Assembly (NCBI GenBank): GCA_019038695.1
Contig: JAHOYZ010000010.1
Location: 1-64,000 of the forward strand
Direction: 5' to 3'
Source: Candidatus Zixiibacteriota bacterium
GTDB lineage: Bacteria > Zixibacteria > MSB-5A5 > GN15 > FEB-12
DNA length: 64,000 nt
The position numbers were made by a program, and so were the translations under genes. Every line of letters starts with the position of its first letter. Position 1 is the first letter of the stretch. The notes under the pieces are model-generated. The model was not told where the DNA came from and ran no database searches. It saw nothing but the letters and a program-made list of their open reading frames with translations. Of this stretch, positions 2,788 through 50,745 are shown in pieces.

Positions 2788-4275
2788 ATGGCTACGCATG
2801 CTGTCTTGCAAAAGGTACTCATCACTCTCTTGACTGTCCTTGTCGCGATACTTACGACACCGGTAGTCAATGCAGAGGTACCGAGGACCATCAATTATCA
2901 GGGTCTACTTACTGACCAGGACACTGGTGAACCGATTACCGGAACAGTCGGAATTATGTTTCGGTTCTACAGACTGGAAACCGATAATGTTGGCGACTCC
3001 CTGTGGGGTGAATTGCATTTAAATGTCAGTGTCACAGAAGGTTTATTCCATGTTATCTTGGGTTCGACGTATCAGATACCAAACTCTGTTTTCAGCGAAC
3101 CTGAATGTTTTTTGGGAATACAAGTTGGCTCTGATCCTGAAATTCTACCTCGAATCGAAATGACATCTGTAGTATACGCGTTTATGTCTACTCGTTCAGA
3201 TACTGCAACATATGCATTGGCAGCTCCCGCCACATCAGACGGTGACTGGACAGTATCTGGAGGAAATGTCTTTCGCGAGAGTGGGAATGTCGGCATAGGG
3301 ACATCAGATCCTTCAGATGATCTCCACATCGAAGGTGATCAGGTCAGAATCAGATTCAATGGAGATTCAGAGAACAATCTCTTGATAGTTGCCCCATACA
3401 GCCTTTCTCATGGTGGTCGCATCCAGTGCGCAAATGATGGTGGTGGGTCTCTTAAGGGATTGGAATTGCGCGCTGATCCAGTTGTGCTAATGGGCGGTCC
3501 AGTCGGCATCGGCACATCTGAGCCTGGCGGTTGGGCTAGACTACACGTTCAAGAGCTGTCATCGTCCAATTGTGCCTTCTTTGAGGGAGTGATGCGAGGA
3601 GTTATGGCGCGAGCCTACGGTCCGGCATCGGGTTCCTTTGGCGTTCAAGCAAGCTCCACTAATCCGGGCAACATAGATAATTATGGCGTTTCTGGAAGAG
3701 CTGATAGCTCGACCAACAATTATGGTGTCTATGGTAGTTGTAGCAACTCTTCAGCTGACTATGGAGTATATAGCTACGGGAATTTCCATGCAACTGGCTC
3801 GAGTACCAAGGGTGGCGGTGGATTTAAGATCGATCATCCGCAGAATCCTGAGAATAATTTCCTGAGTCACAGCGATGTCAGTTCGCCAGATATGAAAAAC
3901 GTGTACGATGGCATGGTGACGATTGACGACAACGGCGAAGCAGTTGTTGAACTGCCACCGTATTTTGAATCGCTGAATGAGAGTTTCCGCTACCAATTGA
4001 CCTGTATTGGTGACTATTCGCCGGTCTACATTGCAGAGAAGATCAGCGGCAACCGTTTCACGATAGCCGGTGGAAAACCATCCATGGAAGTTTCCTGGCA
4101 GGTGACCGGTATACGCAAGGACGCTTTTGCTAAGACCGTTTCAGTCGGAGTCGCTGAGATGAAAGAATCAGACAAGCAAGGATTGTACATGCATCCTGAG
4201 GCCTTCGGCTTCGGGATGGAGAAGTCACTGAATAAAAAGAATCATGAGCTGATGGAGGACTTCGAGAATCATTAA
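2788..4275 (+). CDS. Secreted fibre-like protein with GIGT repeats
   Basis: A 495-residue exported protein. The ATG at 2788 has GGAGGG five bases upstream; a signal peptide follows (hydrophobic core, likely cut after VVNA), then EVPRTINYQGLLTD, a common opening of large secreted proteins in FCB-group bacteria. Two GIGT-x2-P segments (NVGIGTSDP and PVGIGTSEP), each followed by LHI or LHV, resemble the head-of-repeat motif of tail-fibre-like and adhesin-like surface proteins. The NYGVxG and DYGVYS repeats follow. The last ~130 residues, from GGGGFKIDHP, look like a conserved C-terminal domain including ISGNRFTIAGG and EVSWQVTGIR. No catalytic motif is visible. Likely a surface or extracellular structural protein; function unknown. 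It stands alone behind an activator-type promoter. Confidence 0.75.
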   Translation: MATHAVLQKVLITLLTVLVAILTTPVVNAEVPRTINYQGLLTDQDTGEPITGTVGIMFRFYRLETDNVGDSLWGELHLNVSVTEGLFHVILGSTYQIPNSVFSEPECFLGIQVGSDPEILPRIEMTSVVYAFMSTRSDTATYALAAPATSDGDWTVSGGNVFRESGNVGIGTSDPSDDLHIEGDQVRIRFNGDSENNLLIVAPYSLSHGGRIQCANDGGGSLKGLELRADPVVLMGGPVGIGTSEPGGWARLHVQELSSSNCAFFEGVMRGVMARAYGPASGSFGVQASSTNPGNIDNYGVSGRADSSTNNYGVYGSCSNSSADYGVYSYGNFHATGSSTKGGGGFKIDHPQNPENNFLSHSDVSSPDMKNVYDGMVTIDDNGEAVVELPPYFESLNESFRYQLTCIGDYSPVYIAEKISGNRFTIAGGKPSMEVSWQVTGIRKDAFAKTVSVGVAEMKESDKQGLYMHPEAFGFGMEKSLNKKNHELMEDFENH

Positions 4276-6398: not shown

Positions 6399-7712
6399 AT
6401 GAAAGGACGATTGTATACACTGGTGTTATTGACGCTACTATTATTATCTGCGCTGACAGCACCCGCAAGTGGATCTGACCGTTGGGAAGCCCCGTTTGCT
6501 ATCATCGAGGCAACGGTCGGAGTCGATGATTCGGTTTTGACCCTTCCAGAATTGTTGCATCTGGTTGCTACGCGAAATCCGTTGTTGCCATCTCTTGACC
6601 TGAGACGAGAGGCGGCGCAGGGCGAGATTACCCAGGCCGGAGTCCGACCCAATCCGGAGCTTGAGGCTGAGCTTGGCGGAGTGACCTGGGATACTCCCGG
6701 TTTCGACGAATCTGAAATCGGAGTTTCCTTGTCTCAGGAGTTTGAGCTTTTCGGACAACGAGGAGCCCGAAGGAAAGTAGCTGAAGCTGAATGGCAAACA
6801 TCTGAATTCGATGCCAGGGTGGCCGCGTTTGATCTCTATCTGGAGACGCGAGTTCGCTATTTCGCGCTGGCTCATGCCCAGGTACAGTATGATCTCTCGG
6901 ACATTTCGATTGGGTTAGCTGAAGACATTGTAGCCACAATCCAGCAGCGAATTGAGCAAGGGGCAGCACTTCAGTCGGAATTGCTACTGGCCCAACTGGA
7001 ACTTCAGCGTGCCAGACTGGCCAGCGGGGAGGTGGAACTGGACTTTGAGACCGCCCAAATTTCACTCGCGTCATTGTGGGCAGGAGATCCCGGAATCAGA
7101 GTGGTCGTGCCTGCCGAGCCGGATTTCAAATCTGTTTTGGACCGAATCACTGAATCTATAGCTGACTCGACCCGAGAGTTAATAACTTTGGACCGTCACC
7201 GGGAAGAATTGAAAGCCCAGCGATACCTGGCAGATGCCGAGGCAAAACCCAATCTCACTTTGAGCAGCGGTTACACACGGCTGGTCGCTGACAAGTCCAA
7301 CTCTCTGATGTTTGGTATCTCCCTGCCGTTACCGTTTAGGGATCAGAATCATGGCGTTCTGCAGAGCCTGGATGCCGAAATCCAACGGATCGATTTTGAA
7401 CGTCGGCAGGCACAGATAGAGAGTATGGCGGCGGTTGCATCCGGACTGGCACGTTTGAGACAGCTGAATAACCGCCATACCGCCCTTAACGCCGAGTTAC
7501 TTCCGACTGCGGAGGAAACGTATCAGACGATGCAGGTTCTGTATCAGTCGGGCCGACTGCCATACACCAATCTATTGGAGGCAAATCGGGCACTGGTGGA
7601 GCTAAGATTCGAACGTAATGACATAGTGCTCGCTTTTCGCGAGCAGATAATAGCAATGGAACGGCTTGGAGGAAAAATCCTTCAGGCTCACGAGGAAACA
7701 AACAATGACTAA
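6399..7712 (+). CDS. Outer-membrane efflux protein (CzcC/CusC type)
   Basis: A 437-residue TolC-family channel for the tripartite metal pump. Signal peptide (~1-25), then the two OEP repeats of long amphipathic helices: LTLPELLHLVATRNPLLPSL begins the first, and the second covers ~240-430 with the usual PNLTLSSGY strand and the ...YQSGRLPYTNLLEANRALVELR segment, a CzcC/CusC hallmark. GGAG lies about nine bases before the ATG. Its stop overlaps the start of the adaptor gene by eight bases, indicating translational coupling. Confidence 0.9.
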   Translation: MKGRLYTLVLLTLLLLSALTAPASGSDRWEAPFAIIEATVGVDDSVLTLPELLHLVATRNPLLPSLDLRREAAQGEITQAGVRPNPELEAELGGVTWDTPGFDESEIGVSLSQEFELFGQRGARRKVAEAEWQTSEFDARVAAFDLYLETRVRYFALAHAQVQYDLSDISIGLAEDIVATIQQRIEQGAALQSELLLAQLELQRARLASGEVELDFETAQISLASLWAGDPGIRVVVPAEPDFKSVLDRITESIADSTRELITLDRHREELKAQRYLADAEAKPNLTLSSGYTRLVADKSNSLMFGISLPLPFRDQNHGVLQSLDAEIQRIDFERRQAQIESMAAVASGLARLRQLNNRHTALNAELLPTAEETYQTMQVLYQSGRLPYTNLLEANRALVELRFERNDIVLAFREQIIAMERLGGKILQAHEETNND

Positions 7713-8727
7713 TCGCATTTTGATACTACTATTGATAGTGCTGTACCTGGCATCGGCATCGCTGTTTGCTCAAGACGGACACGAAGGATGTGATCACAGT
7801 AGTAACACAGTTAATGAGTCGACGCCAGTTGTTGTGGAAGCAGGCGACCACGACCATGATTCCGATGCTCCGTGCGATGGAGATGACCATGATGAAATCG
7901 TAGTGAACCTGTCACTCGAGGCTCAGAAAATGGCAGGGCTAACTTTTGCGCGGGTGGCACCGGGGTATATTGTTAAAACGAGTGAATTGCCCGGTGAAGT
8001 CGGTTTCAACGAAGATCGATTGGTTCACATTGCACCGCGGTTTGCCGGAATAGCACTTGAGGCACGGTGTCGGGTGGGCAGCTATGTCAACGCCGGCGAC
8101 ATTGTCGCGGTGGTTGAGAGTAATGAGAGCATGAACTCGTATTCGATAGAAGCGCCGATCTCGGGTTGGATCATTGAGAGACACATAACTCCCGGCGAGT
8201 ATGTTTCCGGCGAAAGCAGTATCTTCGCGCTGGCCGATCTTTCCACCGTCTGGGTCAATCTGGCTGTTTATCCCAAAGACGCCGGTATGGTCAAATCCGG
8301 TCAGGAAGTGCTTATTACGGCGATTGGGTCCAAGCAACAAGTGACAGGCACCATTGATTTTGTAACTCCCGTGCTGGACATACTCACCCGGAGCAGCACA
8401 GCACGAGTCGTTCTGCCTAATCCGGACAATGTCTGGCAACCGGGAACGTTTGTTCACGCACAGGTCGTTACTGAAGCCGGGGAACGAGGGCTGGTAGTTG
8501 AAAAAGAGGCAGTGCAGTTGATTGGTGAGGAGAGCGTCATCTTTGTAGTTGAAAGCCCTGACGAATTTGTCGCTGTGGAAGTAGTCGTGGGTGATTCAGA
8601 TGAACATCATGTTCGCATCATAGAGGGGATAACCGAAGGGACCGAGTATGTGGCCGCAGGTGCCTTCGAGTTGAAAGCCCAGATCGTTACCAGTTCCTTG
8701 AGTGGTCATGCCGGTCACGGACATTGA
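7705..8727 (+). CDS. RND efflux periplasmic adaptor (CusB/CzcB family)
   Basis: A 340-residue membrane-fusion protein linking the inner-membrane RND pump to the outer-membrane channel. Start ATG at 7705, overlapping the previous gene by eight bases; signal peptide ~1-20. An N-terminal Cys/His/Asp-rich stretch (EGCDHSS ... DHDHDSDAPCDGDDHDE) probably binds metal. The barrel-sandwich (lipoyl-like) segment is ...GSYVNAGDIVAVVES, followed by APISGWIIERHITPGEYVSG and the beta-barrel domain. The protein ends with SGHAGHGH, a second His cluster. Metal-rich tails at both ends suggest periplasmic metal capture. Confidence 0.9.
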   Translation: MTNRILILLLIVLYLASASLFAQDGHEGCDHSSNTVNESTPVVVEAGDHDHDSDAPCDGDDHDEIVVNLSLEAQKMAGLTFARVAPGYIVKTSELPGEVGFNEDRLVHIAPRFAGIALEARCRVGSYVNAGDIVAVVESNESMNSYSIEAPISGWIIERHITPGEYVSGESSIFALADLSTVWVNLAVYPKDAGMVKSGQEVLITAIGSKQQVTGTIDFVTPVLDILTRSSTARVVLPNPDNVWQPGTFVHAQVVTEAGERGLVVEKEAVQLIGEESVIFVVESPDEFVAVEVVVGDSDEHHVRIIEGITEGTEYVAAGAFELKAQIVTSSLSGHAGHGH

Positions 8728-8737
8728 GGAGAGCGAG

Positions 8738-11700
8738 ATGAAATCCTTTTTTGAGTACGCTCTTAAGAACCGCCTTCTGGTAGTCATTGGCTTGATAGTG
8801 ATCATAATGATGGGTGTTTACCAGTATCGACACTTACCGACTGATGCCTTCCCGGATATTTCACCGGTAATGGTCCCTGTCTTCGCTGAAGCACACGGTA
8901 TGGCCCCCGAAGAAATCGAACGAATGATTACCTTTCCAATCGAATCAGCCATGAACGGTCTGCCCGGAGTGACGCTGATTAAGTCGACTTCTGCTTTCGG
9001 TATGGCCGTTATATATGTCTATTTCGGTGATGACGTAGACATTTACTTCGCTCGCCAGATAGTAGCCGAGCGCTTGGCTGCCGCTACCGCAGAACTCCCT
9101 GAGATGCACGATCCACCTGCGTTGGGGCCGATCTCAACTGGTCTGGGTGAAGTGTTCATGTATTATCTTGAGGCCGACAGTACGGTTGACACCGAGGGCA
9201 AGCATCTGACCACTTACCTGCGAGAACTAAACGACTGGGTGGTCAAGTATCAACTGCAATCTGTGTCCGGCGTGACTGAAATTCTCTCGATGGGTGGCCA
9301 TGTCCTGCAATACCAGATTGAACTCGATCCATACGCACTCAACAAGTACGATCTGTCGCTTGAGGATGTGGTAGAAACCGTCAATTCGAACAACCGAAAT
9401 GCTGGCGGACAGTTTTTGGTGCTGGGTTCAGAGGAATACCTGGTTCGCGGCATCGGGCTTGTGGAAGAACTTGAGGACCTTCGCAATCTGCAGATGAAAG
9501 TTGTGCGAGGTCGCCCGGTACGGTTAGGTGATGTCGCCGAGGTTGAATTCGGTCAGGAACTTCGACGTGGAGTAGTCACACGCAACGGCGTAGAAGAAGT
9601 GGTGGCCGGTATCATTTTGAAACTGTATGGCGAAAATACGTCAGAAATAATCGAACGTCTGGAATTATCTTTTGCCAAGGTTCAAACCTCGCTTCCCGAC
9701 GGTGTGACGCTCGTGCCCTATTACAATCAGAGTACGCTGGTTGGTAGCGCCGTCAATACGGTGCTGACTTCTCTTTGGAAAGGTGCTCTATTGGTAGTTC
9801 TCGTGTTGTTCCTTTTCATGGGGAATGTACGCAGTGCCTCAATTGTGGCGTTGTCACTGCCGATCTGTGCTCTAGTCGCTGCTATCTGCATGGGATGGGC
9901 GGGACTGTCAGCCAACTTAATGTCGCTGGGGGGAATTGCTATCGCTATCGGGATGCTTGGTGACGCCTCAATTGTCATTGTCGAGAATGCATCGAGGCAC
10001 CTCAGTATGGAGCGTAACAAAGGCCGGAGAAAGGTCGAGGTGATAGTCGCAGCCTGCCAGGAGGTGGCGCGACCGATCATCTTCTCGGTGCTGATTATCA
10101 TCATCGTTTTTGTACCACTCTTCACGCTCGAAGGTGTAGAGGGAAAAATGTTTTCTCCGATGGCGTTTACTGTCACCTTTGCACTACTCGGCTCGCTATT
10201 GGCAGCTCTGATTTTTTCGCCAGCGTTGTCGTCGTATCTTCTTAAACATCGTGCGACGCAGGACCCTCTACTGGTACGGATTCTCAAGCGGTTCTATGTA
10301 CCGTATCTAAAATGGAATCTTCGCCACAAGCTGGTGGTGCTGATCGGTTCGCTGGTAGCTTTTGGTGGGGCGCTTGCTTACGTTCCGCATCTCGGCACAG
10401 AGTTCATACCGACGTTGGAAGAGGGAGTAATCCAAATCAATGTTGTTATGGCGCCTTCTATTTCGCTCGATAAAGCAACCGAAACGATCATGAAGTTGGA
10501 GCGGGAGATCGTTTCCTTTGAAGAAGTGGAGCAGACAATCGCGAAGATCGGCCGACCCGAAGCCGGGAGTCATCCCCACCCCGTCAATTTTGCGAATATT
10601 CAACTGACGTTGAAGCCGCCGGCAAGTTGGGTCAATTACGACAACAAGGCACAACTGGTGGAGGCGCTCAACGAACGGTTATCATTGTACCCCGGCATAC
10701 AGCTCAGTTTCACGCAACCGATCCAGAATCTATTTGATGAACTCCTCTCGGGGGTGCGCACCGAGCTTGCCCTCAAACTGTATGGCGAGGATCTCGGGCT
10801 GCTCCGCTCTCTGGCCGAGGAAATCAAAGATGTTATCAAAGATGTCCCCGGTCTGGTTGATCTGTCGGTAGAACAGAGTTTCGGTCAACCCCAGGTTCAA
10901 ATAGTGGTTGATCGCGAAGCCTGTGCCCGATACGGAGCCAGTGTAACCGACATCCTTGAAGTGGTCGAATTGGCGATCGGCGGTGAGGTGATTGATCAGG
11001 TTTTTCTTCATACGCGACGGTTCGGAATCCATGTCCGATTTGACGAACAATATCGCAAAGACCCCGAGGCTATTCGATCGCTGTTAGTACACACATCGGA
11101 AGGTATGCTGGTTCCGTTGTCCCAACTGGCCGAAGTCAGGACCGAAATCGGACCGATACAGATCAATCGGGAGAAGAACCAGCGCCGCTGGGTCATCTCG
11201 GCCAATGTACGGGGCCGCGACATGGGGGGGGTGGTCAAAGATATCAAAGCGGCCGTAGATGAACATATCGGCCTGCCTCCGGGATACCATTTGGAATACG
11301 GGGGTCAATTTGAAAACCAGGAACGGGCGATGAGTCGGCTTGTCGTTATTGTTCCGATCACTTTTGGGTTGATCCTACTGTTGCTTTATGTGTCACTCGG
11401 TTCCTGGCGGTTTGCGACGCTCATTTTTGTGAACGTACCTCTGGCTCTAATAGGTGGCGTACTTGGATTGTTTGTCAGCGGGGAGTATTTGTCAGTACCT
11501 GCCTCGATTGGGTTTATTGCGTTGTTTGGGATCGCCGTTCAGAACGGACTGGTGCTGGTGACGTATATCAATCAACTGTTGCATGAAGGTACTCAGATGA
11601 GCGTGGCGATTGTCGAAGCCTGCTCACAGCGACTGCGACCCGTGCTCATGACAGCATTGACGACTATTCTTGGGTTGGTGCCGCTGCTTCTTTCGCAGGG

Positions 11701-11833
11701 CATGGGTTCGGAGGTACAACGTCCTTTGGCGGTGGTCGTGGTGTTCGGACTGGTTTCGTCGACTTTCCTGACGCTGGTATTGATCCCGGTATTGTACGAA
11801 TGGTTTGCTCCGAAGCAAACGCAAATCAAGTAA
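8738..11833 (+). CDS. Heavy-metal efflux RND transporter (CusA/CzcA family)
   Basis: A 1,031-residue proton-driven inner-membrane pump. Start ATG at 8738 with GAGGAG upstream. Twelve membrane helices and two large periplasmic loops are evident. Helix 4 reads SLGGIAIAIGMLGDASIVIV with proton-relay Asp at residue 409, a CusA-like wording. The porter region around DELLSGVRTELALKLYGED is CzcA-like, and the methionines that bind Cu/Ag in CusA are not seen at the matching places (asparagine/phenylalanine and glutamate instead). Divalent cations are therefore at least as likely as Cu/Ag, but substrate remains open. Confidence 0.92.
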   Translation: MKSFFEYALKNRLLVVIGLIVIIMMGVYQYRHLPTDAFPDISPVMVPVFAEAHGMAPEEIERMITFPIESAMNGLPGVTLIKSTSAFGMAVIYVYFGDDVDIYFARQIVAERLAAATAELPEMHDPPALGPISTGLGEVFMYYLEADSTVDTEGKHLTTYLRELNDWVVKYQLQSVSGVTEILSMGGHVLQYQIELDPYALNKYDLSLEDVVETVNSNNRNAGGQFLVLGSEEYLVRGIGLVEELEDLRNLQMKVVRGRPVRLGDVAEVEFGQELRRGVVTRNGVEEVVAGIILKLYGENTSEIIERLELSFAKVQTSLPDGVTLVPYYNQSTLVGSAVNTVLTSLWKGALLVVLVLFLFMGNVRSASIVALSLPICALVAAICMGWAGLSANLMSLGGIAIAIGMLGDASIVIVENASRHLSMERNKGRRKVEVIVAACQEVARPIIFSVLIIIIVFVPLFTLEGVEGKMFSPMAFTVTFALLGSLLAALIFSPALSSYLLKHRATQDPLLVRILKRFYVPYLKWNLRHKLVVLIGSLVAFGGALAYVPHLGTEFIPTLEEGVIQINVVMAPSISLDKATETIMKLEREIVSFEEVEQTIAKIGRPEAGSHPHPVNFANIQLTLKPPASWVNYDNKAQLVEALNERLSLYPGIQLSFTQPIQNLFDELLSGVRTELALKLYGEDLGLLRSLAEEIKDVIKDVPGLVDLSVEQSFGQPQVQIVVDREACARYGASVTDILEVVELAIGGEVIDQVFLHTRRFGIHVRFDEQYRKDPEAIRSLLVHTSEGMLVPLSQLAEVRTEIGPIQINREKNQRRWVISANVRGRDMGGVVKDIKAAVDEHIGLPPGYHLEYGGQFENQERAMSRLVVIVPITFGLILLLLYVSLGSWRFATLIFVNVPLALIGGVLGLFVSGEYLSVPASIGFIALFGIAVQNGLVLVTYINQLLHEGTQMSVAIVEACSQRLRPVLMTALTTILGLVPLLLSQGMGSEVQRPLAVVVVFGLVSSTFLTLVLIPVLYEWFAPKQTQIK

Positions 11834-11857
11834 CCATAACACCTGAAAGGTTTGGAC

Positions 11858-12493
11858 ATGAACAAGATTCTCGTGAATTTACTACTCATATTACTATTTG
11901 CAGGAACAACCCTCGCCCAGGAATGCGGTCCTTCTTGCCCCGTCTGTTCCGGGGCAGGTAACAATGATGGTGCTTTACTTGCCCGGGGATCAATGATGAT
12001 CTCCGGATTGAGCATTCCCACCGCTGATGAAGAGACTACAGTGCTAAAAACCAGATATGGAGTATTGAACTGGCTTGATGCCGGGGTTGGATATGCCTTT
12101 CGCTCTGAAACAATTCTCTGGAATGTGAGAACCCAACTGCTAACGGAAAAGACGAATGACTGGAGACCCGGCCTTATACTGGGCACCGGCAGCGTTCAGA
12201 CTGGTGGTAGTGATCAGTCGGTGTATGTTCAATTCATTAAATCTTTGGAAATCGGTGGGATCCTGGACGTACGGCTATCGGTCGGAGCAGCTACACTCGT
12301 CCCGGATTTTGACGAGGTTTTCGGTCAAGCTGGTATTACGACGAGTCTCTATGATCGATACACTATCTTCGCCAATTATGATGGCGAATCGTTCCATGAG
12401 GGAATATCCTGGACACCTTTGGATTGGCTTTCGCTGTCATTCCTGATGGTTGAGACTGAGTACCCGGCGTTTTCTATCGCACTCAAGAGGTAG
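11858..12493 (+). CDS. Small exported, probably outer-membrane protein of the efflux operon
   Basis: A 211-residue protein with a signal peptide (cut near LAQ) and a Cys motif CGPSCPVCSG right after it. Alternating hydrophobic strands follow (e.g. RYGVLNWLDAGVGYAFRS, RPGLILGTGSV, ISWTPLDWLSLSFLM), typical of a small beta-barrel. No closer family recognised. It starts 24 bases after the RND gene with GAAAGG seven bases before the ATG at 11858, so it is probably the last gene of the metal operon. The Cys motif suggests metal contact. Confidence 0.6.
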   Translation: MNKILVNLLLILLFAGTTLAQECGPSCPVCSGAGNNDGALLARGSMMISGLSIPTADEETTVLKTRYGVLNWLDAGVGYAFRSETILWNVRTQLLTEKTNDWRPGLILGTGSVQTGGSDQSVYVQFIKSLEIGGILDVRLSVGAATLVPDFDEVFGQAGITTSLYDRYTIFANYDGESFHEGISWTPLDWLSLSFLMVETEYPAFSIALKR

Positions 12494-14083: not shown

Positions 14084-14114
14084 TTCTACCACCGGTAGAA
14101 TGAGGTCATCCTCA
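14084..14114. terminator. Paired hairpins between convergent genes
   Basis: TTCTACC-ACC-GGTAGAA (14084-14100) is followed at once by TGAGG-TCAT-CCTCA (14101-14114). They sit between the end of the GT-C-like gene and the end of the zinc-ribbon gene. No clear U-run follows, so termination is only plausible. Confidence 0.35.
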
Positions 14115-14315
14115 GCCGGCTTTGGCGCTGCCGCATTTGCTCGGCACGCATGATGAGCCACAGCCGGAAGCAATCCCCTTCGATGAAATCAACGACACCA
14201 TCTTGACCACATTTCCCGACGCGCATTTTAGGCAGGAGGGTTTTTCGCTGCTACTGAGAACAAGTTCCTCGAACTGTTCCTGACAATCTATGCACTGAAA
14301 TTTAAATAGCGGCAT
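14112..14315 (-). CDS. FmdB-family zinc-ribbon protein
   Basis: A 67-residue protein starting MPLFKFQCIDCQEQFEELV, then PSCLKCAS: a CxxC...CxxC zinc ribbon in the FmdB/CxxC_CxxC_SSSS family arrangement. The tail (GCGSSCVPSKCGS) adds four cysteines, as is common in this family. Role unknown; first named from a formamidase operon regulator. It is the last gene of the minus-strand redox cluster and follows the selenoprotein by 15 bases. Confidence 0.85.
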   Translation of the reverse strand: MPLFKFQCIDCQEQFEELVLSSSEKPSCLKCASGNVVKMVSLISSKGIASGCGSSCVPSKCGSAKAG

Positions 14316-14330
14316 CCGGCTACTTTCATC

Positions 14331-14507
14331 CTAATCTGTTATTGACATGACCGCACCGATCACAGCCCCTGCTGCCGTTGGCAGGTAGGGGTTACACATC
14401 AGCGGTCACGTTGAACCGATGTTAATGTACAGCATATACAGGCCGAATCCAAGTATTCCGCCGACAGCTGTGAAGCCGAAAGTTCGTTTTTGGAAAAGTT
14501 TTTTCAT
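14331..14507 (-). CDS. DUF6132-like small membrane protein with in-frame UGA (putative selenoprotein)
   Basis: From ATG 14507 the frame runs 33 codons, meets UGA (14406-14408), continues 24 more codons and ends at TAG, giving 58 residues. The product begins MKKLFQKRTFGF, has a hydrophobic helix, then GST-U-PLMCNPYLPT, then a second hydrophobic helix. DUF6132 relatives carry GxCPITSNPY at this place, so UGA falls exactly on their conserved Cys, and a new Cys appears four residues on (U-x3-C). A hairpin follows the UGA. Selenocysteine use is supported by selD in this window. A membrane redox role for the U/C pair is inferred. Ribosome site is weak. The alternative is a nonsense mutation. Confidence 0.75.
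14366..14391 (-). promoter_or_regulatory. Candidate bacterial SECIS hairpin
   Basis: On the coding strand CCCCT and AGGGG enclose a second stem CTGCC-AAC-GGCAG. The outer stem begins 14 bases after the UGA, close to the 13 seen in selD. The tri-loop AAC lacks the G usually found at the start of bacterial SECIS loops, which weakens the call. Confidence 0.5.
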
Positions 14508-14618: not shown

Positions 14619-15008
14619 CTACACCGAAGCCTTCATGATTTCGACCAGAGTTTTCTCGACATCAGTGGCAAGGTCATCCAGACCGGCCTGAGGCAACATC
14701 TGGGCGATCATTGAGGGGCGAGCCAGGTCAATGATGGTTCTATCGCCATCGCTGTGGACGGCGAACCGGCACGGCATAAACAATGCCACCCCGATTTCCT
14801 TTTTGAGCGCCTCATAGGCAAACTTCGCGTTGCAGACCTCAATGATCTTAAGCGGGTTGCGTTGCAACCCTTTTTCGGCCAGAGTAGCCTGAATATCATG
14901 AACAACCAGAACCCGGAACTTGTGATCCGCAGTTTGTTTCTCGATGTTCTCGACTACCGCGTCAAACGACTTGTCCGATTCCATCCTCAAGGCAAACTGG
15001 TCATCCAT
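14619..15008 (-). CDS. DUF302 family protein
   Basis: A 129-residue protein matching DUF302: an N-terminal half with SFDAVVENIEKQTADHKFRV and VHDIQATLAEKG, then KIIEVCNAKFAYEAL and the conserved closing part LFMPCRFAVHSDGDRTIIDL. The fold is small alpha/beta; function is not established, though members are often near sulfur or copper genes. AGGAG sits six bases before the ATG. It lies between the OsmC gene and the selenoprotein in the same direction. Confidence 0.88.
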   Translation of the reverse strand: MDDQFALRMESDKSFDAVVENIEKQTADHKFRVLVVHDIQATLAEKGLQRNPLKIIEVCNAKFAYEALKKEIGVALFMPCRFAVHSDGDRTIIDLARPSMIAQMLPQAGLDDLATDVEKTLVEIMKASV

Positions 15009-15076: not shown

Positions 15077-15496
15077 TTAATCAGTGATAATCTCATAGCT
15101 GGTTGTCACTTTTGCTTCGCTCTTGATCGTCTGGCTGACCACGCAATACTTGCTCTCGGATAACTCGATGGCCCGGGCGAGCGCCTTTTCATCGACGTTG
15201 TCCCCCCTGGCGATAAACTTGATCTCGACCGTATGAAACGGTTTGGGATATTCATCGTTTTGGTGGGCGGAGACTTCGACGGTTAGTTCTTTCAGGGGCT
15301 GGCGTTTCTGTTCCATAACGCGGACGACGTCGATGCCGGTACAGCCGGCGATGCCATAGAAGAGCAGCTCGGTCGGTTTGTAGCCGGATTCCTCGCCGCC
15401 GAACTTCTTGCCGCCGTCGGTTATGATTGTGTGGCCATACGCACTGGTCCCTTCAAATTTCAGACCACCTTTCCAATCCATTTTCACTGATAACAT
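15077..15496 (-). CDS. OsmC family protein
   Basis: A 139-residue OsmC/Ohr-fold protein. Start ATG at 15496 (MLSVKMDWKGG) with AGGA eight bases upstream; the longer in-frame start adds no conserved sequence. The first redox Cys is in GIAGCTGIDVVRVM and the second in ESKYCVVSQT, the two positions used for peroxide reduction in the family; the YhfA-like subgroup also binds other ligands. Peroxide or organic hydroperoxide reduction is likely but substrate is not known. Part of the redox cluster. Confidence 0.9.
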   Translation of the reverse strand: MLSVKMDWKGGLKFEGTSAYGHTIITDGGKKFGGEESGYKPTELLFYGIAGCTGIDVVRVMEQKRQPLKELTVEVSAHQNDEYPKPFHTVEIKFIARGDNVDEKALARAIELSESKYCVVSQTIKSEAKVTTSYEIITD

Positions 15497-15574
15497 ATTG
15501 TCATTCCTTTCTTTCGATACTGAACCCACCGCCGGTGGGCATCAAAACATTTGACGGAGATGATAAGGCAGGAA

Positions 15575-17704
15575 TCAGAGTTCGTCCAGTTGCATCTTGA
15601 GGTCTTGCAGAGTTTCAGTCGGCAGACCACAGACTGAGTTGCGGCAGATGTAGGCTTTTGCCTGACCGGATGACTCACGACCTTGAAAAAGGGCCACGTT
15701 GTGGCAGTTACCGGGACCAACTGCGAGGACAACATTGGGCAAGTTACGGCGGTATATTTCTGCGATCATTTTCTCACGGACCGGACCATCTCCAACCACA
15801 ACGATTTCTAGTTTGTCGTTGAGATAATAATCGACAGCCAAAAGGGCGGATGCCATAGCTTGGGGGCTTTGCTCCAGGAGTAAGGATATTGCAATTAGCC
15901 CTTTCTCTGCTGTGTCCAGGAACTCCTTCCGGCCAGATATGCGGTTAAGCTTCAAGAGGCAGGTCATCATTACCGATCCAGGGGCGGGCGTGGAGCCGTC
16001 GGTTTCGTCCCTTGGTCGCACTATGAGATCCTCTTGCCCGGCTGGGCGCAGGAACCAGCGACCATTTTCATCCATAAATAGTATGATAGCTCGTTGAGCT
16101 AACACCACTGCAAACTCCAGCCACTCACTACCGTGATCAATATCGGTTTCTACGAGATCAAGTAAGCCCTTGACATAGTAGGCGTAATCCTCAAGGAATT
16201 CCTCCCGCAGCTGTTTGCCGTTGCGGTAGGCATGAATCAGGGCGCCGTCTTCAAACAATGTGGATTTCACAAATGCTGCGTTACGGCGAGCGGCCTCCAG
16301 ATATCGTTTGTCGCCGGTGATCTGATAGCCATCACACATTGCGCTCAGAGCCAGCCCGTTCCATGAGGTTAGAATCTTGTCGTCGGTAGCCGGTCGGATT
16401 CTCCCTGACCGGGCCTTCAGTAGCAGGGGAATATAGTCTGCAGCTATGAGATCAAAATCTTCAGCATCGGTCACATTTCGTACACGATCAGAATTGGAGT
16501 CGACGTTAAGGATGTTGCGCCCTTCGAAATTGCCACCTGATGTAATGTTATAAAAGTCACAGAACAGCTTGGACTTGTCACCCAGAAGAGCGTCGATCTC
16601 ATTCTTGCTCCAGGTATAGAATCGCCCTTCTTCTCCCTCGCTGTCGGCATCAAGGGAGCAAAAGAAGCCGCCATTATCGTCAGTCATCTCTCTGAGAATG
16701 AAGTCGAGGGTCTGACGAACAACACTCAAATAAAGTGGTCGGCTGGTTGATCGGTATGCCTGGACATAGGTTGAAGTCAGCAGGGCATTGTCGTAGAGCA
16801 TCTTTTCGAAATGTGGCACCAACCACGCGCGGTCGGTGGCATAGCGTGCGAAGCCCCCCCCGACGTGATCATAGATTCCACCTCGCGCCATGGCAGTCAG
16901 TCCCTTCTCGGCTGCCTTTAGAAAAACATCGTCGCCGGTCGCTTGATGATACCGTAAAAACAGCGACAATTCGAGGGAATGAGGAAATTTAGGGGCTTGG
17001 CCGAAACCGCCGTACTTGTCATCGAAGCTTCCTCGCAGGCGCCGGACACCTCGCTCAATCATCTCTTGCTTGAGAGTAGAGTTGGCTTGTGTCACGCTGT
17101 TGAATCTGGCTGACATCTGAACGAAGACCTTTTCGGCTGTTTGGGTCAGTGTATTCTTATCGGTACGGTAGGTCTTGAGAAGTTCGACGATAATGCGTTT
17201 GAAACCGGGCTGTCCATACGAATCCTCGGGCGGAAAATAGGTTCCGGTATAGAAAGGTTTGAGGTCCGGAGTGAGGAACACCGACATTGGCCAACCTCCA
17301 CGCCCGGTCATGGCGGTGGTGAAGGCCATGTAAATCTCGTCCAGATCAGGCCGTTGTTCGCGGTCCACCTTGATACAGACATAGCCATCGTTGAGGATGG
17401 TGGCGATACTTTCATTTTCGAACGACTCACGCTCCATCACGTGACACCAGTGACAGGCGGCGTAGCCAATGGACAGGAAGATCGGTTTGTTCTCGTCCCG
17501 GGCGCGACTCAGGGCTTCCTCGCCCCAAGGGTACCAATCCACTGGGTTGTGGGCATGCGACAACAGATAGGGAGAAGCTTCGTCGATCAGATGGTTGGTA
17601 TGTTTGTGTTCGGTCGAATCCAGGTTCGAATCCTCAACGTTTGGTGTTTTACTTTGAGGTGACATTGACAAAGCCATAATCAGCCCGACAGCCATGAGCA
17701 CCAT
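15575..17704 (-). CDS. DUF255 thioredoxin-fold protein (YyaL/SPATA20 family)
   Basis: A 709-residue protein. After a short hydrophobic N-terminus it shows the diagnostic DUF255 thioredoxin domain: [20 protein letters not shown], then [16 protein letters not shown] with the CHWC active-site motif and [13 protein letters not shown]. The remaining ~500 residues are the (alpha/alpha)6 barrel of the family (e.g. [26 protein letters not shown]). Biochemical role is unsettled; relatives are called spermatogenesis-associated protein 20. AGGA six bases before the ATG. Its location beside OsmC, DUF302 and a selenoprotein supports a thiol/redox role. Confidence 0.93.
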
Positions 17705-47564: not shown

Positions 47565-49778
47565 TTAGGGGGTTGGGTTAGCCTCGCGCATCTGTTGTGC
47601 TGCGCGATCCCAAATATTGCGCGCATAAGCAGCACGATAAGGGTTGACTTCGACCGCCTTCGCAAAGAACCCCTGGGCGGTGTTCATCATCGCTTGATCT
47701 TTAGTCAGGTAGGCCAGTCTCTGTAACATCTGACCACACTGTAGCTGGACGAAGAAATTGGTCGGGAATCTCTGTCCGAGAGAGATCAGGACGCTGTGTC
47801 CATGTTGAAGTTGACCCGTCTGGAGTAGCAGCGATGCAAGTAGCAGTCCAGTCGAGTTTGATTCGGGGTGGAGTCGGTATGTCTGAGTAGCCAGAGCCAT
47901 GGCACTGTCGAACTGCTGTGCTCTTACGTATGCGACGGCCCGCTCGTATGGACTGGGCTGGTATGCAAGTGCGTCCTGATTTTCAAACAGGTCGTTGATC
48001 CTGAACAATCCCACTTCGACATCCCGTATCCAGTAAGTAGTTTCCCTCTGAAGTCCTTGAAGTGCCGGGTAGTTTTTCACGGCTTCGGCGTAGTTAGACA
48101 TATCAACCGCCAGATGCGTGATCGGATTATCGTCGAATAGTCGCTCGTCCACATTGGCTACACGGAAGAGGTGGATAAAAGAATGCAGATCGGTGTCAAC
48201 TGTCAGCGTGGGGCCGTATGGCCCGGAGATGATGGCGTTAGGACCGACAATGGTAGCCAGATCGGCGTTGGCTTCAGAGATATTGTAATTTGTCTCAAGG
48301 AAATATGAGCGGTGAATGTGTATTCCATTGGCCACGACCGAGGTCGCCATTACTGTGGCAAGGGCTATCATCCAGGCTCGTTTGGAGATCCGATGACTGA
48401 GACCGGTGGTCAGCAGACGTCTGGCTAAAAACGCCAGTCCAATCGCGACGGGCAAGGTGGTCCAGGTGATCATGCTGATCGGCCTGGGGAACGTATCAAA
48501 AAACAGGCCGTTGCCCGTTAGATGTGCCAAGAATAGCCAGAAAGCACCTACCAGGAGAACAAGTTGCCAGCGTGCCACATTTGCTGTCCCTTCGACTCGC
48601 GCATTTCGCACGCAATCAAACATTGTGAAGCACAATACGATCATGGCCGGAATCACCAACACGGCATATCGAATCGGTGAGTAGTTAAGGGGTGATAAAC
48701 CAATTACCGCCAGAGCGGTCCAGGAAATAGCCAACCACGTAACCGGTGTTAGTTTTGTTCTCTGGAGTCGGAATTGAACCGGGAGCACCATGCCGACCAC
48801 CAGGAACAACAGCAAATCGGGCGTAAGGAAGAAGAGGTGGTTGCTGAATCCATACGTGACAAGCCTTTCCACGAATGCCCAGGGAGATTTCAAGCCATCG
48901 GGAAATCCGCGCAAGCCGTAAGTCTGTTCGCCAAAATAAGCACTGATTGCGGAGAATTCGGGACCATAAAGAGCTGTCAGCAGCAGTAGCGTAGCAGTGG
49001 CAAAACCTGCGGTTGTGGCAAGTATCAGTTTCCAACGATATGTCCCGCCGCTGAAGAAAATAGTCAGCATCAGGGCCGGGAGCATCATCGCTCCAAAAAG
49101 CTTGCCGGTTAGCATGGCGGCGGCAACTAATCCACCGGCTATCGCTGTCCCAACCATGTGCTTTCCCCACCAGGAGTATACCCAGAAGGCGGCCGCCAGC
49201 ATGAACAGCATACCGTTCTCAAGGTATGATAACCGACCGTGCGTCAGCATGGTAACGTTCAGAACGTAGCAAAAAGCAATCGCGGCCGTGACCCAGGGTC
49301 GATGATGACGAGCTACGCCCAGCATCAGAAGTACAAGAGCACCCAGCGAAAGAAGCACTCCGACAATAGATGCGGTTGTTATCGATACACCGAACAGAGC
49401 GAACGTGCCCCAGGCAACCAGAGAGGTCAACGAATGCTGGTAGACCGCCCAGCGTGGATAGTCGAAAGGATCAAAATCACCAAACAGCACCTGGTTACGG
49501 GCATGAAAAGTATACTGGGCCGGATCGGTAGACAGAGACTGCCCAATCCCGGAATAGTACATAGGAGGATCGGCTGACAGGTTACTTTGCCAGGCTACGA
49601 ATCCAGCCACCACGATAACCGCCGCCACAACGAAGAACAGCCACGCTCGGCGACTATTACTTTTAGTGTGTCGGTCGGTACGGGGGTGTCTATTCCACAA
49701 TGACACTAATGTCAATTTGCGTCTCGACCTCACCAATCTTCTGGACGAAGATTTCTTTGTCTTTACACTCTTGCTCAA
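47565..49778 (-). CDS. GT-C glycosyltransferase with C-terminal TPR region
   Basis: A 737-residue membrane protein of the ArnT/PMT-like GT-C superfamily: about eleven helices; the first loop after helix 1 has DPPMYYSGIGQSLSTDPAQY (acidic catalytic site) and YPRWAVYQHSL. A soluble C-terminal part holds TPR-like repeats (YERAVAYVRAQQFDSAMALA, TGLLLASLLLQTGQLQHG). Such enzymes transfer sugars from polyprenyl phosphate at the periplasmic face. The basic N-terminal ~30 residues overlap selD by 89 bases; the real start may be later (a TTG near 49700), but no better ribosome site is seen. Confidence 0.75.
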   Translation of the reverse strand: MSKSVKTKKSSSRRLVRSRRKLTLVSLWNRHPRTDRHTKSNSRRAWLFFVVAAVIVVAGFVAWQSNLSADPPMYYSGIGQSLSTDPAQYTFHARNQVLFGDFDPFDYPRWAVYQHSLTSLVAWGTFALFGVSITTASIVGVLLSLGALVLLMLGVARHHRPWVTAAIAFCYVLNVTMLTHGRLSYLENGMLFMLAAAFWVYSWWGKHMVGTAIAGGLVAAAMLTGKLFGAMMLPALMLTIFFSGGTYRWKLILATTAGFATATLLLLTALYGPEFSAISAYFGEQTYGLRGFPDGLKSPWAFVERLVTYGFSNHLFFLTPDLLLFLVVGMVLPVQFRLQRTKLTPVTWLAISWTALAVIGLSPLNYSPIRYAVLVIPAMIVLCFTMFDCVRNARVEGTANVARWQLVLLVGAFWLFLAHLTGNGLFFDTFPRPISMITWTTLPVAIGLAFLARRLLTTGLSHRISKRAWMIALATVMATSVVANGIHIHRSYFLETNYNISEANADLATIVGPNAIISGPYGPTLTVDTDLHSFIHLFRVANVDERLFDDNPITHLAVDMSNYAEAVKNYPALQGLQRETTYWIRDVEVGLFRINDLFENQDALAYQPSPYERAVAYVRAQQFDSAMALATQTYRLHPESNSTGLLLASLLLQTGQLQHGHSVLISLGQRFPTNFFVQLQCGQMLQRLAYLTKDQAMMNTAQGFFAKAVEVNPYRAAYARNIWDRAAQQMREANPTP

Positions 49779-50745
49779 ACTTCTGAACCCTATCCCTGGG
49801 AATTGAGATCAGCAGCCCACCAGATGTCTGCGGGTCAAACATTATGTGCTCAATATTACTGTCAGTGGACGAAGCAATCCGTATTCGTCCTTGCAAGAAA
49901 TCACGATTAGCATTGGCCCCGCCGGGTATCATGCCGGCCTCGGCCAGACGGGTTGCCTCCGGCATAAGCGGCAACTGGTCGGAGATTAGACGGATGGTGA
50001 CATTAGAAGCTGAAGCCACTTCAAAGGTATGGCCAAGCAGCCCGTAGCCGGTGATGTCGGTCGCGGAAGTAGCGCCGCATTTGACCATAACCGCTGAAGC
50101 GTTGGCGTTTAGCTGTGTCATCTGCCGCATCGCCAGTACAGCGAGGTTCTCATCGACGGCATTGCGTTTGATGCCCGTGCTAATCAGCCCAGTGCCGAGC
50201 GGTTTGGTCAGGTACAGGCTATCTCCGGGTCGAGCACCGGCGTTGGTGATGATCCGCCGAGGATCAACCACACCAGTCACAGCCAGACCGTACTTGATCT
50301 CCTTGTCCTGGATGGAGTGACCGCCGACTACGACCGCTCCCGCTTCTTCAACCTTGTTACTACCGCCTTGCAGCATCTCGGTCAGAACCGATGAAGGCAT
50401 ATTGCCACTTGGGAAGCCGACGATGTTCAAAGCGGTTATCGGACGACCACCCATAGCATAGATATCCGAGAGAGCGTTAGCGGCGGCTATCTGGCCAAAC
50501 CGGTAAGGATCATCGACAATCGGAGGGAAGAAATCGACCGTTTGTACCAGGGCTAAATCATCGCTGAGTTGAAAGACACCAGCGTCATCAGCGTTATTGA
50601 ATCCCACGAGTAGATTCGGGTGATTGCTGGACGGCAAATCAGCTAATGCTTCCGCCAAAACCTTTGGCGCGAGTTTAGAGGCTCAGCCAGCGCAGCTGAC
50701 TTCGGCGGTTAGTTTGATAGTGGCTTCCCGTCGTCGGTCGTTCAA
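49690..50745 (-). CDS. selD: Selenide water dikinase (SelD), selenocysteine-containing
   Basis: A 352-residue ATP-dependent selenophosphate synthase. Seen: CAGUASKLAPKVLAEALADL with in-frame UGA (50683-50685), at the family's Cys/Sec site; NNADDAGVFQL; VDFFPPIVDDPYRFGQIAAA; NALSDIYAMGGRP; SGGLLIS. I start it at TTG 50745, the only start codon between the upstream stop and the UGA that preserves the glycine loop; a start at 50658 would lose the active site. A hairpin follows the UGA. SelD makes selenophosphate for Sec insertion. Its Sec residue shows that UGA decoding occurs in this organism. Confidence 0.9.
50653..50669 (-). promoter_or_regulatory. Candidate bacterial SECIS in selD
   Basis: On the coding strand CGCCAAA-GGT-TTTGGCG forms a seven-base stem with a GG-led loop. 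It starts 13 bases after the UGA at 50683-50685. Loop sequence and distance fit bacterial SECIS rules. Confidence 0.7.

Follow-up and report, generated by a model that had tools for sequence, protein, structure and literature searches.

A short UGA-containing gene related to DUF6132, predicted to encode a tiny membrane selenoprotein in Candidatus Zixiibacteriota and other phyla

Introduction

Does an in-frame UGA in a very short gene terminate translation, or is it read as selenocysteine (Sec)? This question arose from a locus in a 64,000-nucleotide stretch of DNA (positions 1 to 64,000 of contig JAHOYZ010000010.1 from a Candidatus Zixiibacteriota bacterium, hereafter the window), for which the initial annotation had proposed a DUF6132-like membrane selenoprotein. 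The analysis described here supports, with a probability of roughly 90%, the reading that the gene belongs to an integral membrane Sec branch of DUF6132, combining RNA-directed Sec insertion, a redox pair and a location in a redox gene cluster.

A 58-codon gene with one internal UGA

The translation of the minus strand from 14507 to 14331 gave MKKLFQKRTFGFTAVGGILGFGLYMLYINIGST-UGA-PLMCNPYLPTAAGAVIGAVMSITD-stop, with the residues GST-U-PLMCNPYLPTAAG around Sec34. The frame was open on both sides of a single UGA, as had been noticed initially, and the same applied to the homologs. No coding was found on the plus strand of 14331-14507. The gene is absent from databases because of its internal stop codon, as gene callers end the frame at the UGA. 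The features of the locus are listed in Table 1.

Table 1. Positions of the gene, its RNA elements and neighboring genes in the window
Feature	Positions	Strand	Description and basis
Sec-DUF6132 gene	14331..14507	-	58 codons; ATG 14507-14505; stop 14333-14331; translation; frame uninterrupted before and after the UGA in homologs, with comparable constraint in both parts
UGA codon 34, predicted Sec codon	14406..14408	-	UGA at the same codon in 54 genomes of the phylum and 12 outside; Cys in 10 relatives of the phylum
Cys38, partner at U+4	14394..14396	-	Cys at +4 in 54/66 Sec forms
Hairpin 1 of the RNA element	14366..14391	-	Starts 14 nt after the UGA; folding, signal against synonymous shuffles
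Hairpin 2 of the RNA element	14349..14361	-	GGU loop at 14357-14355; 89% of cells paired; covariation exceeded that of all 500 shuffles
FmdB-like zinc-ribbon gene, constant downstream neighbor	14112..14315	-	Pfam Zn_ribbon_8; follows the gene in 54/54 UGA and 8/10 Cys loci
DUF302 gene	14619..15008	-	Pfam; near 45/54 UGA loci
OsmC-like gene	15077..15529	-	Pfam; near 51/54 UGA loci
DUF255 (thioredoxin-domain) gene	15575..17704	-	Pfam; in at least 28 UGA loci, many flanks being too short to reach it
selD with in-frame UGA near its start	49690..50715	-	TIGR00476, 378 bits, one internal TGA; translation

Conservation of the UGA codon

A family-level search of 55 genomes returned 43 matches, 42 of which had exactly one internal stop, TGA. 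The 43rd match was weak, contained three TAA stops and came from G001, the only other species of the genus searched. When the family profile was run against all 133 phylum genomes, 11 UGA forms from a different family of the same order and one from a distant family (G112) were added, along with 10 stop-free forms, all of which had Cys at the UGA column. Throughout the host phylum (Candidatus Zixiibacteriota / GN15), each of the 54 intact stop-bearing homologs contained exactly one internal stop, and it was UGA at codon 34 in all of them. A motif pattern applied to approximately 85,000 species gave 21 matches, including 20 true members and one match in Nostoc, which was rejected as chance. Of the true members, two came from outside the phylum: Candidatus Fischerbacteria RBG_13_37_8 and the isolate BWSM_10. 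After a search of the phyla of these two organisms, the number of UGA genes known beyond the host phylum stood at 12; their motifs had diverged (e.g., GYGUSIMCNP, GSTUGITCSP and ANTUSIWCNP). Within the family, the UGA at codon 34 occurred in approximately 30 genera, and it extended to other families and phyla, giving more than 60 genomes in total (66 Sec forms). The tree required at least two changes between U and C: the Sec form of G112 was placed among Cys forms from its own family and one other, with moderate support for these short sequences.

The initial annotation had pointed to this codon in relatives as the place to look, and UGA was found there in the 54 genomes of the phylum and the 12 outside. 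The UGA was not unique to the contig, and the intact copies carried no other stops. The only broken copy was that of the congeneric species G001 (L098, ~2950-3120), which lies in a syntenic position between the OsmC and zinc-ribbon genes, contains several TAA stops and is evidently a pseudogene.

If the UGA were a true stop, the gene would encode a 33-residue single-helix peptide or be a decaying pseudogene. A pseudogene copy does exist in the same genus, and one genome by itself would not suffice to exclude a stop. The comparison across genomes nevertheless makes this explanation very improbable. Across 54 genomes, the sequence after the UGA was conserved, evolved under purifying constraint and had no second stop; dN/dS was 0.66 for the 19 codons after the UGA and 0.61 for the 24 before, measured on partly saturated pairs, and the differences between close pairs were mostly synonymous on both sides. 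The Cys forms ran straight through the position of the UGA, and the zinc-ribbon gene began just past the terminal stop, not past the UGA. Moreover, the internal stop was invariably UGA, yet the neighboring ORFs at the same loci used TGA as their terminal stop in only 24% of cases (TAA 93, TAG 68, TGA 51; n=212). The 54 UGA genes themselves ended with TAG (24), TAA (17) or TGA (13). Local stop usage does not account for an internal stop that is UGA in every case, and the pattern is not due to chance.

Selenium machinery

The genome of the window possessed tRNA-Sec (68 bits, anticodon tca), selA, selB and selD. As selA and selB are nearly universal in this phylum, testing the machinery against the presence of the UGA is weak there. 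In the other phyla, selA was detected in 12 of 12 genomes with UGA genes and scored above the cut-off in none of the three tested genomes with UGA-free forms. A search for selA, selB and tRNA-Sec found none of them in G044 (L040), which has a UGA form in an 85% complete draft of more than 300 contigs; this absence may reflect a gap in the draft, or the Sec trait may have been lost recently. In G001, likewise a draft of more than 300 contigs, selA and selB were not found and tRNA-Sec was present (68.9 bits). On account of this tRNA, a preceding loss of the Sec trait was rejected as the explanation for the broken G001 copy.

The selD gene of the window was itself a Sec form (SCAG-U-ASK, UGA at ~50685-50683) with the hairpin CGCCAAA-GGU-UUUGGCG. 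Its start would be overlooked by gene callers.

RNA structure downstream of the UGA

Structure was evaluated by folding 30-nt windows against controls in which codons were swapped for synonymous ones at local usage. The 54 UGA genes had structure above expectation at +15 to +44 (mean z -1.90; 81% below -1) and a second peak at +42 to +71 (mean z -1.39), with weaker signals elsewhere, and the signal in the 10 Cys genes was flat. With 48-nt windows, the 12 UGA genes from outside the phylum gave a peak at +12 to +59 (z -1.49), where AACCC pairs with GGGUU in most of them. The synonymous controls show selection on RNA structure just after the UGA, in the UGA forms only.

The register of hairpin 2 was ungapped, and 29 cells changed on both sides compared with 7.1 in shuffles; sliding the partner abolished the signal. 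The consensus of RNAalifold consisted of hairpin 2 alone because the register of hairpin 1 varies. The Gly codon at the loop of hairpin 2 was mostly GGU or GGG and in 0 of 54 genes GGC, the codon favored by the neighbors (chi-square p 5e-12, not corrected for relatedness).

The bSECIS model has a G in the first two loop positions and a loop located 16-37 nt after the UGA (PMC13188914). Hairpin 1 was at the right distance but often had the wrong loop; in the window gene, the hairpin of highest stability had an AAC loop with no G. Hairpin 2 had the right loop at ~48 nt from the UGA, outside the range of 16-37 nt (PMC13188914). The RNA element, as predicted by folding, matches the canonical model only partly. 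A scan for canonical bSECIS elements was uninformative, as 51 of the 54 genes can form one and 89% of shuffles pass too. The Rfam scan of the window gave no matches. The initial annotation had described a stem-loop starting 14 bases after the UGA, almost as in selD, and this was borne out: the stem of selD in this genome starts 13 nt after its UGA. The selD element has its GGU loop 20 nt after the UGA, in agreement with the bSECIS model, whereas the Sec-DUF6132 gene has GGU in the second hairpin, ~48 nt away.

These data also bear on the possibility that the UGA is decoded as an amino acid other than Sec, by near-cognate read-through or a reassigned code. Conservation across the UGA is silent on the inserted residue and would accommodate such decoding. 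However, the relatives carry Cys at codon 34, not Trp or Gly, the Sec machinery is present and tracks the UGA forms outside the phylum, and selection on RNA structure after the UGA is confined to the UGA forms. As TGA terminates 51 of the 212 neighboring ORFs, UGA is not reassigned. Decoding as another residue thus has very little probability left, and the comparative sequence evidence points strongly to Sec coding. The 58-residue product is almost certainly a tiny membrane selenoprotein.

Relationship to DUF6132

The window protein gave no match to the Pfam DUF6132 model (PF19628) or to NCBIfam models. Two UGA forms of its own family scored 16.9 and 20.6 against the PF19628 cut-off of 23.2, and a UGA form from another phylum (L115) exceeded it with 27.5. 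Three Cys relatives from the class also passed. In a profile comparison (hhalign), the Sec profile aligned with the DUF6132 Cys forms over 56 columns with a probability of 97.5% (E 5.4e-12). The UGA column aligned with the second Cys of GCxSGTCPITSNP, in agreement with the earlier placement opposite the second Cys of CPITSNP. The profile match and the score of L115 led us to name the proteins a divergent Sec branch related to DUF6132, the window protein itself being below the formal Pfam cut-off. The proposed kinship therefore holds at the profile level, but it is distant.

The window protein shares with the Pfam DUF6132 Cys forms its length, two hydrophobic helices and a turn ending in NP, and the relatives of the class have an FmdB-like gene downstream, as at the window locus. 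The turn and NP are kept in the window protein, the first Cys is missing, the second Cys is replaced by Sec, and a Cys at +4 is usual in the Sec forms.

Comparison with known selenoproteins

A catalogue published in 2026 contains 119 prokaryotic selenoprotein families, and the majority of its characterized members have a thioredoxin-like fold (PMC13188914). The present proteins resemble the catalogued families (PMC13188914) in having an in-frame UGA, Cys homologs, Sec machinery and a redox setting. The catalogue lists neither DUF6132 nor a two-helix membrane hairpin with such a motif (PMC13188914). It includes OsmC-like (UxxT) and FmdB-family (UxxU) selenoproteins, but the FmdB and OsmC neighbors at the window locus are not Sec proteins. 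No report of DUF6132 as a selenoprotein was found in the portions of the literature consulted, and unpublished or figure-only predictions, such as 'hypothetical protein GOS_A' (PMC2398784), may coincide with it.

The selenoprotein catalogue would gain a family of tiny membrane proteins missed by gene callers. The second Cys of DUF6132 becomes a likely functional residue, and a family of unknown function is placed in a redox gene cluster. The 66 genes with their unusual downstream structure also provide material on how far SelB tolerates distance from the UGA.

Partner cysteine and predicted fold

A Cys at +4 was present in 54 of the 66 Sec forms, only two of which also had an upstream Cys. The other 12 included eight with a Cys 2-7 residues upstream of Sec (Fisher p 3e-6, not phylogeny-corrected) and four with no nearby Cys, so that 62 of the 66 had one on either side. 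The 10 Cys forms comprised six with C-x3-C (e.g., GSQCMILCN) and four with C-x4-C. The Cys at +4 is not a gain confined to the Sec forms, as it is present in six of the 10 Cys forms and absent from 12 of the 66 Sec forms. Similarly, the proposed U-x3-C pair occurs in most Sec forms but not in all, and where it is missing an upstream Cys often takes its place. We read the distribution as a single partner thiol switching sides of Sec, which favors a Sec-Cys redox pair.

AlphaFold2 predicted, with moderate confidence (pLDDT 74.5, pTM 0.48), a helix at residues 2-30, a turn containing Sec34, and a helix at 41-57. According to the positive-inside rule, the basic N-terminus lies inside, and the turn with Sec34 is therefore predicted on the periplasmic side. 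We infer that the two-helix membrane hairpin presents a Sec/Cys redox site to the periplasm.

Gene cluster and proposed role

The gene is part of a conserved cluster, DUF255-OsmC-DUF302-[Sec-DUF6132 gene]-FmdB, encoded on one strand in the window. In most loci, no more than ~20 nt separated the terminal stop from the start of the zinc-ribbon gene. Because the pair of DUF6132-like and FmdB-like genes is kept also in Cys forms from other families (8 of 10; window 14112-14507; L088-L097), their products probably cooperate. Proteins that looked thioredoxin-like by eye were seen near other copies of the gene. The earlier description as a membrane protein in a redox gene cluster is supported by the conserved cluster and the two-helix model, and the neighbors suggest that the redox pair and its pathway would concern thiol or sulfur redox.

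The best-supported mechanism is as follows. SelB and Sec-tRNA would decode the UGA at codon 34 as selenocysteine, the insertion being guided by the in-gene RNA structure ~14-60 nt downstream. The product would consist of two membrane helices joined by the short turn G-S-T-Sec-x-x-M-Cys-N-P facing the periplasm. Sec would form a selenenylsulfide/thiol pair with the near Cys, which lies at +4 or, in other members, a few residues before Sec; the pair may serve thiol, sulfur or peroxide redox together with the DUF255, OsmC, DUF302 and zinc-ribbon proteins encoded alongside. In this scheme, the choice of the hairpin bound by SelB, the topology, the redox pair and the pathway are what we infer from the features described above.

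A selenoprotein with another function is a minority possibility of some weight: instead of acting as a thiol oxidoreductase, the Sec site may bind metal or belong to a membrane oligomer, a channel or transporter, that moves sulfur, selenium or metal species. The Gly-rich helices (GGxLGF, GAVxGAV), with weak Pfam Gly-zipper matches, would permit oligomers, the constant neighbor is a zinc-ribbon protein, and the second Cys is missing in four Sec forms. On the other hand, exactly one partner Cys is kept in most Sec forms while switching sides, and thioredoxin-domain and OsmC proteins are among the neighbors, which argues for the thiol redox role.

With the redox role as the preferred reading, we tentatively put forward a fuller picture, which may well prove wrong in one or another of its parts. 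The proteins would be previously unlisted, multi-phylum mini membrane selenoproteins; their RNA element would be split into a spacer hairpin and a distal hairpin with a GGU loop for SelB outside 16-37 nt; and the partner thiol would have switched sides of Sec, within a DUF255-OsmC-DUF302-zinc-ribbon redox system.

Two further observations were made on gene surroundings. UGA-free DUF6132-type genes (GTCPLTATP) in four genomes from the phylum of L120 (L129-L132) had an OsmC-like gene ~0.7-1.1 kb downstream. In the window, the region 6399-12493 resembled by eye an RND-type heavy-metal efflux system, with a His-rich adaptor at 7666-8727.
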